Part shown: piece after piece, positions 34,595 to 42,900 of the stretch
Layout of the letters: each line of letters begins with the position of its first letter
Position numbering within the stretch: the stretch's first letter is position 1
Assembly (NCBI GenBank): GCA_029237775.1
Contig: JAQZBR010000004.1
Location: forward strand, 434,001 to 498,000
Source of the DNA: Bacteroidota bacterium
GTDB taxonomy: Bacteria; Bacteroidota; Bacteroidia; 2-12-FULL-35-15
Direction of reading: 5' to 3'
Length of the DNA stretch: 64,000 nucleotides
Translations under genes and position numbers: made by a program
The notes under the pieces: model-generated
What the model saw: only the letters and a program-made list of their open reading frames with translations
Told to the model about the DNA's origin: nothing
Database searches by the model: none

Positions 34595-34635
34595 TTGTAC
34601 GCGGATCTAATTAGTTTAATTATGATAAAAAATGA
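34595..34635 (+). repeat. Left inverted repeat of GxxExxY element A
   Basis: Begins TTGTACGCGGAT and ends near TATGATAAAAAATGA. It pairs as an imperfect inverted repeat with 35081-35121, about 30 of 40 positions matching with one gap. It begins 9 bases after the upstream amidohydrolase stop. Confidence 0.7.
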
Positions 34636-34658
34636 AAGTTGATTGATATTATGATCTT

Positions 34659-35075
34659 ATGAGAGATAACTTTAAACACACCGAAATTAACGGCAACATT
34701 TTAAAAGCTTTTTTCAATGTTTATAATGGTATCGGTTTTGGATTTCCAGAAAAGGTTTATGAAAATGCTTTAATTATCGAGCTTAATAAATTAGGATTGA
34801 GATGCGAAAAACAAAAGTCAATTAATGTCTACTACGAAAAACAGGTTGTAGGCTCATATTTTGCTGACTGAGTGGTTGAGCAGTGTGTGATTGTGGAATT
34901 AAAAGCAGTAGATTTATTAATTCCACAACATGAAGTTCAATTAGTAAACAATTTGAGAGCCACTGACATAGAAGTTGGGTTGCTATTAAATTTCGGGATG
35001 GACCCGCAATACAAACGAAGAGTATTATCTAATGAAAATAAAAAACACGCACAGCAAATCATAAAAACATCATAA
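34659..35075 (+). pseudogene. GxxExxY protein gene interrupted by one in-frame TGA
   Basis: The frame encodes a complete GxxExxY protein except for a TGA at 34869-34871. Upstream of it are GIGFGFPEKVYENALIIEL and YYEKQVVGSYFAD. Downstream, in the same frame, are VIVELKAVDLLIPQHE, RATDIEVGLLLNFG and the usual C-terminus. Aligned with the intact copy at 40873-41286 (YFADLIVNDLVIIELKA), the stop replaces a single leucine codon, with no insertion or deletion. The PD-(D/E)XK-like residues (aspartate in FAD, then ELK) fall on either side of the stop, so neither fragment would be a complete nuclease-like core. A GTG directly after the stop could restart translation, but a working product seems unlikely. 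Confidence 0.85.
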
Positions 35076-35080
35076 TACAG

Positions 35081-35121
35081 ATCTTTTTTTATCATCATTG
35101 AATCAAAAAATCAGCGTACAA
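35081..35121 (-). repeat. Right inverted repeat of GxxExxY element A
   Basis: Reads inward on the minus strand as TTGTACGCTGAT and onward to ATGATAAAAAAAGA, the partner of 34595-34635. It ends 8 bases before the start codon of the next amidohydrolase-like gene. Confidence 0.7.
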
Positions 35122-37931: not shown

Positions 37932-38678
37932 ATGAACTATTTGCTTATCATACCACGTACACTTTGGAAAGTATTGTTCTTACTTAATTTTGTACTTGGA
38001 CTAATAGTTCTTTTCCCTTTTTTCTATATACTTCTATCACGAAGGAAATGGTTTCCGTTAGCATTTAAATTGAAAAAATTCTGGGCCGCCTGGATCATGA
38101 TCATACCCGGACTATTTTATAGAGTCACACGGAAAGTTCCAAACGATAAATTACCACAACCGGCCATCTATTGCGGTAATCATGTATCTTATCTCGATAT
38201 TATTGCGAGCTACCTTGTGGTTCCTAATTACTTTGTTTTTATGGGTAAGCAGGAGCTTGATAAAGCACCATTATTCAGGATCTTCTTTAAAGAAATGAAT
38301 ATACTTGTCGACCGTAGCAGCAACATTGGCTCACACCGGGCATTCATGCGAGCAGGTTCTGACATCGACAAAGGCGACAGCGTATTTCTTTTTCCTGAAG
38401 GAACCATTTCAAGCTTTGGGAAATTACGAGGATTTAAGAACGGAGCATTCAAGCTCGCGATTGAAAAACAAGTGCCGATAGTGCCGGTAACTTTTTTAAA
38501 TAACTGGAAACTACTTCAGAATGGTGGATTTTTCAAAGCGCATGGAAGACCGGGCATAAGCCGTATTGTGGTTCATGAGCCGATTTCTACTATTGGCATG
38601 ACTGAGAAGGATTTAGTATCTTTGCGCACGAAAGTTTATGATGTGATCCAGGCTGAATTGGAAAAATATAATTCTTAA
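37932..38678 (+). CDS. plsC: 1-acyl-sn-glycerol-3-phosphate acyltransferase
   Basis: A 248-residue membrane acyltransferase making phosphatidic acid from lysophosphatidic acid. One or two N-terminal hydrophobic segments are present (VLFLLNFVLGLIVLFPFFYILL). The catalytic HX4D motif lies in NHVSYLDI, the FPEGTIS motif binds the glycerol phosphate, and VPIVPVTF is the later conserved segment. The length is normal. The promoter element lies almost at the start codon. It could act on related glycerol or ornithine lipid acceptors, but phospholipid synthesis is the usual role. Confidence 0.9.
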   Translation: MNYLLIIPRTLWKVLFLLNFVLGLIVLFPFFYILLSRRKWFPLAFKLKKFWAAWIMIIPGLFYRVTRKVPNDKLPQPAIYCGNHVSYLDIIASYLVVPNYFVFMGKQELDKAPLFRIFFKEMNILVDRSSNIGSHRAFMRAGSDIDKGDSVFLFPEGTISSFGKLRGFKNGAFKLAIEKQVPIVPVTFLNNWKLLQNGGFFKAHGRPGISRIVVHEPISTIGMTEKDLVSLRTKVYDVIQAELEKYNS

Positions 38679-38682
38679 ATTT

Positions 38683-38760
38683 TTACCACTAAGGCACTAA
38701 GGGCACTAAGGTTTTATTAACAGATTCGTTAATTCGTTTTTTTATTCGTTATCTGAACAA
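38683..38760. repeat. AAGGCACTAAGG and ATTCGTTA-type repeats
   Basis: ACCACTAAGGCACTAAGGG and a further CACTAAGG unit (38684-38711) form a tandem, in the opposite sense to the copy at 2953-2972. It is followed by AGATTCGTTAATTCGTTTT (38722-38740), a diverged ATTCGTA-type unit. It fills the plsC to gatC gap. Confidence 0.6.
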
Positions 38761-38793: not shown

Positions 38794-39090
38794 ATGAAAA
38801 TTGACAAAGATACAGTTGACAAAATAGCTCATCTCGCAAGACTTGAATTCGCAAACGATGCAGCGAAAGATTCAATGATCAAAGACATGAATAACATGCT
38901 TGGATTCATTGATAAACTTAATGAGCTCGACACATCTAATGTTGAGCCTTTGATCTACATGAGTGAAGAAGTGAATGTACTTCGTGAAGATGATGTGAAG
39001 CATGAGATCACGCAGCAGGAAGCATTAAAGAATGCACCGAAGCATGATTCTGATTATTTCAAAGTTCCGAAAGTAATAGGAAAAGTTTAA
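38794..39090 (+). CDS. gatC: Asp-tRNA(Asn)/Glu-tRNA(Gln) amidotransferase subunit C
   Basis: A 98-residue subunit stabilising the GatCAB complex that makes Gln-tRNA(Gln) or Asn-tRNA(Asn) by transamidation. The signature IDKDTVDKIAHLARLEF lies at the N-terminus, and NVEPLIYMSEEVNVLREDDV and APKHDSDYFKVPKVIGK follow. gatA and gatB are not in the window, which is common in this phylum. The next gene starts two bases after the stop. Confidence 0.93.
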   Translation: MKIDKDTVDKIAHLARLEFANDAAKDSMIKDMNNMLGFIDKLNELDTSNVEPLIYMSEEVNVLREDDVKHEITQQEALKNAPKHDSDYFKVPKVIGKV

Positions 39091-39855: not shown

Positions 39856-40824
39856 TCAAATCCAACCCTTTTCCAAAATATCTTTCGTATGATATGTAAT
39901 GATTAGATTCGCGCCTGCCCTTGCAAATGCATACATATTCTCCATTACAATTTTCTGCTCATCGATCCAACCTTTTGCTGCAGCAGCTTTCACCATTGAA
40001 TATTCTCCGGAAACATTATAGCAAGCGATTGGCAGTAAAGTATTCTGACGAAGATTAAAGATCACATCCATATATGCAAGTGCAGGTTTTACCATCAGCA
40101 CATCTGCTCCTTCCACCTCATCCAATAATCCTTCTGTCATTGATTCATTTCCATTTCTGAAATCCATCTGATAGGACTTCCGATCCCCCTTCTGAGGCGC
40201 AGAATCAGCAGCTTCACGGAACGGGCCATAATATGCTGATGCATATTTAATGGAATATGACATGATCGCTGTATTTTCATATCCGTTCTTATCCATTAGA
40301 TTACGCATTGCAGAGATACGCCCGTCCATCATATCACTCGGTGCAACCATATCAGCACCGGCCTGCGCATGTGCAAGCGCCATTTTTGCAAGTACCTCAA
40401 CAGATTCATCATTGTGAACATAATCATCGTGCAGGATACCGCAATGTCCATGCGTTGTGTAAGCGCACACGCAAACATCAGTGATCACGTACAATGAATC
40501 ACCAAACTTATCTTTAAGGGCTTTTACAGCCTTTACAACTACGGAATTATTGCTAAATGATGAACTTGCATCCTGAGTCTTCTCTTCACCTACACCAAAC
40601 AATAAAACCTTATTTATACCATGTTTCAAACCCTTTTCAATATCCTTTATCAATTGATCCACCGAAAAATGGTTGATACCCGGCATGGCATCTATTGGGT
40701 GAACAACGCCTGTTCCCTCCACCACAAAATATGGATAGATAAACATGTCTTTTGCTAAACGGGTTTCCGCAACCATCTCACGGATGATGGGGTTTTTTCT
40801 GAGTCTGCGAGGTCGTTGGGTCAT
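39856..40824 (-). CDS. hemB: Delta-aminolevulinic acid dehydratase (porphobilinogen synthase)
   Basis: A 322-residue enzyme condensing two 5-aminolevulinate molecules to porphobilinogen. The N-terminus RPRRLRKNPIIREMVAET is typical. DVCVCAYTTHGHCG holds the cysteine-type zinc site. SYSIKYASAYYGPFREA and VMVKPALAYMD carry the two active-site lysines. Full length. Third enzyme gene of the haem cluster; a GxxExxY element separates it from hemCD. Confidence 0.96.
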   Translation of the reverse strand: MTQRPRRLRKNPIIREMVAETRLAKDMFIYPYFVVEGTGVVHPIDAMPGINHFSVDQLIKDIEKGLKHGINKVLLFGVGEEKTQDASSSFSNNSVVVKAVKALKDKFGDSLYVITDVCVCAYTTHGHCGILHDDYVHNDESVEVLAKMALAHAQAGADMVAPSDMMDGRISAMRNLMDKNGYENTAIMSYSIKYASAYYGPFREAADSAPQKGDRKSYQMDFRNGNESMTEGLLDEVEGADVLMVKPALAYMDVIFNLRQNTLLPIACYNVSGEYSMVKAAAAKGWIDEQKIVMENMYAFARAGANLIITYHTKDILEKGWI

Positions 40825-40836
40825 ATTTTTAAATGG

Positions 40837-40854
40837 AACGCTGATCTTTATGAT
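40837..40854 (-). repeat. Inverted repeat of GxxExxY element B, hemB side
   Basis: AACGCTGATCTTTATGAT (18 bases) is the exact reverse complement of 41317-41334. A further AAACGCTGATT unit lies at 40864-40874, reaching into the GxxExxY stop codon. The arm begins 13 bases before the hemB start codon. Confidence 0.85.
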
Positions 40855-40872
40855 TTTTAAGATAAACGCTGA

Positions 40873-41286
40873 TTAATTCTTTGCGAGGTTATGATTCTTA
40901 AACTTATTGCTAAACGCTTTGCGCTTAAATTGAGCCACTCTTCCAAAATTCAGTAATAAACCTATTTCAATATCTGTTGCCCTAAGATAATTTACTAATT
41001 GAGCTTCATGCTCCTCCGCTAAGCTATCAGCAGCTTTTAATTCAATTATAACCAAATCATTAACAATTAAATCAGCGAAATATTCTCCTACATTAACTTC
41101 ATCATAATAAACCTTGATAGCTTTTTGCTTTTCGCACTTTAAGTTAAGTTTTTCTAACTCAATTATAAGAGCATTTTCATAAACCTTTTCAAGAAAACCG
41201 TAGTCAAGCTTATTATAAACATTATAATATGCTTTGATAATAATACCTGTGAGATCCGAATAAAGATAATTCTCAATTGTATTCAT
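40873..41286 (-). CDS. GxxExxY protein, intact copy
   Basis: A 137-residue protein of the GxxExxY family, whose function is not established. The naming motif lies in YGFLEKVYENALIIEL (about residues 28-43). The family has a PD-(D/E)XK nuclease-like core, visible as the aspartate in YFADLIVND followed by VIIELKA. RATDIEIGLLLNFG is the conserved C-terminal segment. It lies between hemCD and hemB on their strand and is enclosed by an 18-base perfect inverted repeat. The gene and repeats together fill the gap. The paralogue at 34659 carries a nonsense codon. Nuclease activity is inference from the motif. Confidence 0.9.
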   Translation of the reverse strand: MNTIENYLYSDLTGIIIKAYYNVYNKLDYGFLEKVYENALIIELEKLNLKCEKQKAIKVYYDEVNVGEYFADLIVNDLVIIELKAADSLAEEHEAQLVNYLRATDIEIGLLLNFGRVAQFKRKAFSNKFKNHNLAKN

Positions 41287-41316
41287 AAAAAATTTAAATC
41301 CTTTTAAACCATAAAG

Positions 41317-41334
41317 ATCATAAAGATCAGCGTT
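41317..41334 (+). repeat. Inverted repeat of GxxExxY element B, hemCD side
   Basis: ATCATAAAGATCAGCGTT, the exact partner of 40837-40854, preceded by a second ATAAAGATC unit. It ends three bases from the hemCD stop codon. Confidence 0.85.
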
Positions 41335-41337
41335 AAA

Positions 41338-42900
41338 TTAAATCCCGAAAACAGCCTCCGCCAACCCCACCTCATCAAATGATACAGGCAGCACACAATT
41401 TTCAACTCCGAATGATTTTAATTTTTTTTCTGTCGATTCACCGATGGCAACAACTTTTTGTTCCGGTTTCACTTTTCCTTTTTCGAAGAAAGCTTCAACG
41501 TTTGACGGGCTGGTAAAAACAAGGATCTCCGCATCAGCCGTCTTTGCGTTCTCTTTTTTCACCGTTTCGTAAACTGCAAGGTCGCTGAGTTTACTGCTAT
41601 CTTCAAATTGCTGCTGAATGGTTCTTAAACCACCTTTAGCCTGCGGAAACAGCACAGTTTCACTCCCTACACTCTTAGCAAATTTTTTACCCACTACTTT
41701 TGTATCGTTCACACTCCCTACGAAAGCGGCATTACGATTATACTTTTTTAACGTGAGCTCCGTTGATTTACCGATCGCACCAAATTTAACTTTAGGTTTT
41801 AACTCAGGATCCTGAGCAAAGAAATGTTCAACAGCATTGCTGCTCGCGAAAAACACCCAGTCGGTCTGTGGCACTTTTTCAATTGTGATCTTTTTTGTCT
41901 CGATGAAAGAAACCCCGTTTACCTTATATCCGTTACCTTCCAGCGTTTTCTTAAAGAAGGAGTCTTCATTAAGATCACGTGTAATAATTACAGAAACAGG
42001 TTTAATATTATTGAGCTGGTCAACTATCTTCTGTGCAAAACCATCTGCCGTGAATGACTCACGATAAATCCGCTTCGGCATCGCATCCCACGCATCGGAT
42101 TTTGATGTCCAGACTTTAAATTTATTGTCTTCACGAATACAGTAAACACCTAATGGCAACTGACAACCGCCATCGAACAGATTTAAGATCTTGCGTTCAA
42201 TCCCGATTGTCCCTTCCACTTTTTCTGAGGTCAGCTTATGAACGTACTGAAACAATTCATGATCGTCCTCGCGGATCTGTAATCCCAATACACCTTGCGC
42301 GGGTGCCGGGATAAATTCTTTTGGATCCAGACGAAGCACTTTAAACTCCGACAAATTGATCTTCAAGCGCTCAACACCTGCATTGGCAAGCATTATCGCA
42401 TCATATTTTTTATCACGTAATTTCTGAATCCGTGTTGGAACATTTCCGCGCAAATCTTCAATCTTAATATCACTGCGGAATGCAAGCAGTTGAGATTTTC
42501 TTCTCGCGGAAGAAGTCCCGACAACTGCATTCTTTTTAAAGGAAAACTTCAATCCGTTATCCACACTCTCTTTTCTGATCAATAATAATTCAGCAGGATC
42601 TTCCCTTTCGGACACCGCTGCTATCATTAAGCCTTGCGGGGATGTAGTCGGAAGATCTTTATGTGAATGCACAGCAAGATCAATTTCTTTATTTAAAAGA
42701 GCATCTTCGATTTCCTTTGTAAAAAACCCTTTTCCTTCAAGCTTGTCAAAACTCAGATCCTGAATGGCATCACCTTTTGTCACTATTATTTTGATCTCGG
42801 CTGTCAGGCCAAGCTTCTGAACTTTACGTAAGACGTAATTCGCCTGCCATAGAGCGAGGTCGCTGCCGCGGGAGCCGATGATTATTTTTCTGTTTTCCAT
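41338..42900 (-). CDS. hemC-hemD: Fused hydroxymethylbilane synthase and uroporphyrinogen-III synthase
   Basis: A 520-residue bifunctional haem enzyme. Residues 1 to about 300 are HemC, polymerising four porphobilinogens. KIIIGSRGSDLALWQANYV is the N-terminal signature, LAVHSHKDLPT the active-site loop, GTSSARRKSQLLAFR binds substrate, and GGCQLPLGVY holds the dipyrromethane-cofactor cysteine. Residues from about 305 to 520 are HemD, closing the ring, with the low-conservation VFFASSNAVEHFF and LVFTSPSNVEAFF segments. No linker gap or frameshift interrupts the fusion. Confidence 0.93.
   Translation of the reverse strand: MENRKIIIGSRGSDLALWQANYVLRKVQKLGLTAEIKIIVTKGDAIQDLSFDKLEGKGFFTKEIEDALLNKEIDLAVHSHKDLPTTSPQGLMIAAVSEREDPAELLLIRKESVDNGLKFSFKKNAVVGTSSARRKSQLLAFRSDIKIEDLRGNVPTRIQKLRDKKYDAIMLANAGVERLKINLSEFKVLRLDPKEFIPAPAQGVLGLQIREDDHELFQYVHKLTSEKVEGTIGIERKILNLFDGGCQLPLGVYCIREDNKFKVWTSKSDAWDAMPKRIYRESFTADGFAQKIVDQLNNIKPVSVIITRDLNEDSFFKKTLEGNGYKVNGVSFIETKKITIEKVPQTDWVFFASSNAVEHFFAQDPELKPKVKFGAIGKSTELTLKKYNRNAAFVGSVNDTKVVGKKFAKSVGSETVLFPQAKGGLRTIQQQFEDSSKLSDLAVYETVKKENAKTADAEILVFTSPSNVEAFFEKGKVKPEQKVVAIGESTEKKLKSFGVENCVLPVSFDEVGLAEAVFGI

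Follow-up and report, generated by a model that had tools for sequence, protein, structure and literature searches.

Two described systems come closest to the locus analyzed here. The closest structural parallel is the 23S IVS, which has inverted terminal repeats, one small open reading frame and a patchy distribution (PMC4990558). The closest functional parallel, drawn by analogy, is the REPIN/RAYT system, whose enzyme and repeats are unrelated to those of this locus. Within the window, the whole 64,000-nucleotide stretch of Bacteroidota DNA that was analyzed, a GxxExxY gene lies between inverted repeats in the spacer separating hemCD from hemB. This insert is probably a single-gene DNA element of about 0.5 kb, with a nuclease placed between two inverted iteron arrays. 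The open-access literature names GxxExxY in passing only and mentions the arms nowhere; an earlier description elsewhere is possible. Apparently, the element class is both very widespread and undescribed.

Results

The insert between hemCD and hemB

The sequence AACGCTGATCTTTATGAT occupies 40837-40854 on the plus strand, and its exact inverse lies at 41317-41334. No other match occurs in the window at up to three mismatches, where 0.12 would be expected by chance, and the coordinates of the perfect 18-bp inverted repeat that an initial annotation had placed around the GxxExxY gene were verified. A chance repeat was ruled out by this expectation and by the rate of such arms relative to shifted controls, reported below. 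An imperfect extension brings the repeat to 31 nt per side (40829-40859 and 41312-41342, 87%), and the extension of the right arm runs into the end of hemCD. On the minus strand, hemB starts at 40824 and hemCD ends at 41338; the gene plus its arms therefore fill the spacer, as the annotation had also claimed. The insert is co-oriented within the hem gene run, its sole open reading frame is GxxExxY, and its arms are able to form a perfect 18-bp stem. Its left-arm type recurs in focal-clade elements of other genomes.

The window also holds a second, decayed element (34595-35121) approximately 5.7 kb from the focal one. In five other genomes (G003, G010, G016, G025 and G035), homologues are found about as far from hemB. 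A single CACTAAG arm at 38680-38711 sits between the open reading frames 37932-38678 and 38794-39090.

Table 1. Features of the focal insert, its flanks and related sequences in the window.
Feature	Position	Strand	Remarks
Second, decayed element: left arm	34595..34635	+	GTACGCGGATCT...
Second element: decayed GxxExxY gene	34665..35048	+	60% identity to focal protein, one in-frame TGA
Second element: right arm	35082..35121	-	
Single arm without gene	38680..38711	+	CCACTAAGGCACTAAGGGCACTAAGG, three CACTAAG iterons, intergenic
hemB, flank downstream of insert	39856..40824	-	orthologues in 90/119 relatives
Left arm, hemB side	40829..40859	+	18-bp perfect core 40837-40854, GGAACGCTGATCTTTATGAT
Second AACGCTGAT iteron	40865..40873	+	left arm's inner edge, abuts GxxExxY stop codon
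GxxExxY gene	40873..41286	-	137 aa, Cas4/RecB-like PD-(D/E)XK nuclease
Right arm, hemCD side	41312..41342	-	18-bp perfect core 41317-41334
hemCD, flank upstream of insert	41338..42900	-	

The GxxExxY protein

The focal protein matches PF13366 (E 5e-39, 134 bits against a curated cut-off of 22) and TIGR04256 GxxExxY (E 4e-39, 133 bits against a curated cut-off of 35). The PD-(D/E)XK-like core that had been read from an aspartate and an ELK motif is present as claimed, in D72 and E82-x-K84, and Q96xxxY100 is kept too. Among 35 GxxExxY sequences, residues D72, K84, Q96 and Y100 are invariant and E82 is conserved in at least 90%; together these residues make up an intact active site of the RecB/Cas4 type. 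The AlphaFold2 model of the protein has a pLDDT of 88.5, and the best matches among solved structures are Cas4 SSO0001, an alkaline exonuclease (LHK-exo), the Hjc Holliday-junction resolvase and lambda exo. A comparison of the focal gene with its orthologue in G028, which occupies the same spacer at 91% identity, gave a dN of 0.048 and a saturated dS of 2.07. This result indicates strong purifying selection on the protein and rules out that the focal gene is decayed.

GxxExxY genes were present in 53 of the 59 relatives searched, at 1-20 copies each. Plasmids seldom carry them (8 of 72,556 records), and one bacterial GxxExxY query found no match in phage records. The PADLOC models gave no strong match for GxxExxY; the matches were weak and Cas4-like only (best E 3.4e-5). 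At L236 (G035:C11:28029-28418), the GxxExxY match lies within an open frame of 591 aa.

Arms around other GxxExxY genes

The genome has seven GxxExxY genes, and inverted arms enclose each of them. The arm sequence differs from one gene to the next; examples are TTTCTCGCAGAGGCGCAGAGAACGC (L033), CAGATCAC..ACGAATATTACGAATCTG (L035) and CCACAAAGGCGCAAAGACGC (L037). Six of these genes had a better arm match than every one of 200 shuffles, and the 19-bp match of L036 tied with the best shuffle. For a wider survey, the two flanks of a gene were compared by a single alignment score, with a threshold IR score of 28 and position-shifted controls. Among genus and class relatives, 31 of 36 GxxExxY loci, a set that includes this genome's own seven genes, reached the threshold, compared with 4.3% of shifted controls. 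A GTDB-wide sample of 80 loci, 75 of them with enough flank, covered archaea as well as over ten phyla of bacteria (Bacteroidota, Chloroflexota, Planctomycetota, Verrucomicrobiota, Cyanobacteriota, Pseudomonadota, Thermodesulfobacteriota, Ignavibacteriota, Methanosarcinales and others); here 65 of the 75 reached the threshold, compared with 3.8% of 318 shifted controls. Matches in direct orientation were also raised (24 of 75 against 3.8% of controls), because the arms are often compound or tandem arrays. The expectation that other GxxExxY genes would lie inside such arms was therefore borne out, in 7/7 cases in this genome and in 86-87% of relatives near and far. These results suggest that the arm-bounded GxxExxY gene is a widespread, overlooked DNA element that spreads repeats. 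Two archaeal loci from Methanosarcinales (L160 and L171) carry GxxExxY genes with typical CACAGAG/CGCAGAG arms.

The focal 18-mer itself has one more exact copy in the genome and nine copies with 1-2 mismatches. These are mostly intergenic and gene-less, none flanks a GxxExxY gene found here, and no convincing inverted partner was seen near the gene-less copies in this genome. 

Filled and empty sites

The spacer between hemCD and hemB measures only 7-24 bp, or the genes overlap, in six same-genus genomes. It holds GxxExxY in two same-genus genomes besides the window's own, one of them at a contig edge, and in seven others it is occupied by arms like those of the insert but by no gene (140-177 bp). 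The near-empty spacers agree with the proposal that relatives lack the insert, and the empty alleles rule out an ordinary, vertically fixed spacer gene. In other relatives, the spacers at L045, L047 and L052 contain unrelated short repeats of the ACGAATATTACGAAT and CTTTGCGC/CTCTGCGG types.

Searches with joined flanks extended this result to three other GxxExxY elements. The orthologous site of the L033 element is empty in G010 and G016 and filled in G003 and G018, that of L034 is empty in G014, and that of L035 is empty in nine relatives. The orthologue of the L037 element in G018 is built with other iterons. The L033 site in G009 (L266) carries a single CACGGAG arm, compared with the CGCAGAG element in the window's genome; the same spacer was reused there by another iteron type. 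The initial annotation had also foreseen a clean junction in relatives. The empty sites do exist, but the flanks are only 75-89% identical, which blurs the junctions of the elements, and neither a target-site duplication nor an exact junction was readable at the empty sites.

Iterons and the protein tree

The arms are arrays of a roughly 7-bp iteron, CRCNRAK, in two to four copies at 8-10 bp spacing, with the variants CGCAGAG, CACAGAT, CGCAAAG, CGCCAAG, CGCGGAG and others. Two-sided arrays face inward in 72 of 138 loci and outward in 6, and the two arms of one locus share the same iteron variant. The variant of the focal clade reads GGAACGCWGAT..TATGAT, or TGGAACGCWGAT..TATGAT..TATGAT, with GAT about every ten bases. 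The reading of the initial annotation is supported, with two corrections: it is the inverted-array plan, with an iteron specific to each clade, and not the 18-mer that is conserved, and the 18-mer copies in this genome mostly lack a gene.

On a tree of 138 proteins, built on few columns and with many forks left open, 41 changes of the iteron label were counted, compared with 74 expected and a minimum of 67 in 100 shuffles. The last base of the iteron changes 5 times against 24 expected, and among genus and class relatives alone the label changes 15 times against 28.6. For cross-phylum pairs whose proteins are at least 60% identical, iteron agreement is 0.32, compared with 0.17 in within-phylum shuffles, and none of 2000 shuffles reached 0.32. 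Clades on the tree mix phyla, which suggests that the unit of protein with its arms moves horizontally, including between phyla.

Units without a gene

A gene-less unit of about 135 bp with focal-type arms is dispersed in the genus and is numerous in some of its genomes, with 29 matches in G003 and 28 in G010. In a 464-kb genome sample, there were five arrays of at least three iterons and none of the reversed motif. Triple CACAGAT arrays beyond the gene arms are short inward pairs or single arms. CACAGAT arrays occur in all seven genomes that have the cognate clade, compared with 13 of 52 that do not, and G038, which has no close cognate clade, contains six. The number of solo CACAGAT arrays is related to the cognate clade (Mann-Whitney p 0.0014, Fisher p 0.023), in tests that ignore the kinship between genomes. 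The number of focal-type arms showed no clear relation to the focal clade; G008 lacks a gene of the clade yet gave 19 matches. Near-identical gene-bearing copies within one genome were not seen.

Two tandem arrays were observed beside GxxExxY genes: a 145-bp mini-element repeated 5.9 times in G025 (L091, 1845-2695) and a 99-bp unit repeated 4.6 times in G015 (L241, 1014-1480). Furthermore, a dispersed intergenic repeat of approximately 95 bp lies near position 1500 of L003, L004, L005, L011 and L012; it starts with the focal arm (GGAACGCNGAT..TATGAT), includes a hairpin of the GCTTCGC type and finishes near GGCTTTGCC.

Four-helix genes with the same plan

Genes for TIGR02436 four-helix bundles lie between inverted arms at 33 of 35 loci, compared with 0 of 67 controls. 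These loci (L038-L043 and L348-L377) are intergenic, and their iterons are of the AGTTGGC, AGATTTG, AATAGAC and GGTTTCA types. The shared plan indicates that a nuclease is not required for such an architecture.

Discussion

From sequence comparison we infer both recognition and mobility, and we consider it rather likely that the nuclease recognizes its iterons and drives the spread or maintenance of arm-bounded units. In this mechanism, the GxxExxY protein would bind its own iteron array and cut at or beside the arms, either as DNA or as a hairpin that they form. Repair or copying through the break would then insert or multiply arm-bounded units, usually short gene-less ones, a spread resembling the REPIN multiplication that is attributed to RAYT transposases. 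The gene-bearing unit itself would move rarely, usually with one or two copies per clade and genome, and with transfer between phyla. Several results weigh against this mechanism: the lack of near-identical gene-bearing copies within one genome, the arrays in genomes without the close cognate clade, the focal-type arm counts, and the four-helix genes that share the plan; target-site duplications and exact junctions were not readable either. The concordance between iteron and protein makes the recognition directly testable.

Other machinery might instead spread the iterons, with GxxExxY as cargo, or as a gene that prefers to insert between repeats, and with no action on the arms. The non-nuclease TIGR02436 genes, which are enclosed by arms arranged in this way (33/35), the arrays in genomes where a close cognate gene is absent (13/52) and the focal-type arm counts, which do not track the gene, all speak for such a passenger. 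We nevertheless judge it unlikely, because cargo would take whichever repeats its host offers, whereas the iteron tracks the protein phylogeny, between phyla too. The iteron variant is identical in the two arms of a locus, the seven paralogues of one genome have their own arms each, and the GxxExxY active site is conserved, all of which argue against a passive role.

The arms might also act at the RNA level, as in 23S IVSs, by pairing in the transcript so that RNase III trims the hairpin and insertion into an operon is tolerated; they would then be retained for tolerance and not for DNA mobility. The possible perfect 18-bp stem and the co-orientation of the element in the hem gene run are consistent with this, as are the 23S IVSs of approximately 430 nt, which have inverted-repeat borders and encode an S23 protein (PMC4990558), and the TIGR02436 genes, which show the same plan outside rRNA. 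Inverted pairing alone, however, does not explain a conserved iteron core at a spacing of about 9 bp, the iteron-protein concordance is left unexplained as well, and scattered single arms are unable to form a stem; we regard this explanation as improbable. An equally improbable account is that the arms are the operator or terminator of an ordinary accessory gene, for example a defence or toxin nuclease, that is gained and lost by recombination. The small PD-(D/E)XK Rpn proteins were shown to be phage-defence toxin-antitoxin genes (PMC10327210), and the HMM similarity to Cas4, albeit weak, points the same way. Self-regulation fits poorly with dispersed gene-less arms and mini-elements and with tandem amplification, and the gene's rarity on plasmids (8/72,556), the lack of a phage-record match with one bacterial query and the absence of any matching defence model beyond weak Cas4-like ones also argue against it.

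Returning to a nuclease that acts on its iterons, a broader proposal is possible, and we advance it tentatively. These elements may form a new class of autonomous mobile DNA in bacteria and archaea, in which a minimal Cas4/RecB-like nuclease works on clade-specific iterons in more than ten phyla and is accompanied by mini-elements that are non-autonomous. These elements and the four-helix (S23/IVP) ones might jointly form a superclass of single-gene elements with iteron arms that explains many short dispersed repeats of these genomes.

Comparison with known systems

GxxExxY shares the fold and the motifs D..ExK..QxxxY with the Cas4/RecB nucleases. Unlike them, it is free-standing, has about 115-140 aa and adjoins its own arms and not cas genes. 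The Rpn proteins (YhgA-like, PF04754) are also PD-(D/E)XK enzymes and are tied to DNA mobilization (PMC5350276) and defence (PMC10327210), but they belong to another Pfam family, and the abstracts do not mention inverted iteron arms for Rpn. IS elements and MITEs resemble the focal element in their terminal inverted repeats, short gene-less derivatives and empty and filled alleles. They differ in that the focal element lacks a recombinase gene of the DDE, HUH, serine or tyrosine kind, and that its terminal repeats are iteron arrays; target-site duplications were not readable in flanks that are 75-89% identical.

The 23S IVSs with S23/IVP (TIGR02436) resemble the focal element in length (~430-570 bp), in their terminal inverted repeats, in encoding a single small open reading frame and in their patchy occurrence. 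However, the focal element lies between hemCD and hemB and not in a helix loop of 23S rRNA, it encodes an unrelated nuclease, and its iteron arms are also scattered alone. The REPIN/RAYT system likewise combines a small nuclease gene with inverted copies of its own repeat, which form doublets, singlets and tandem clusters by the gene (PMC3116915). By HMM and fold, GxxExxY is a PD-(D/E)XK enzyme, whereas RAYT is a HUH Y1 transposase, and the GxxExxY arms are arrays of iterons of about 7 bp, whereas REP is a palindrome tagged GTAG or CGTC. If the nuclease does move or multiply its iterons, this would give a ubiquitous family a function and many dispersed short repeats an origin, and would represent a second, non-homologous case of the REPIN/RAYT strategy.
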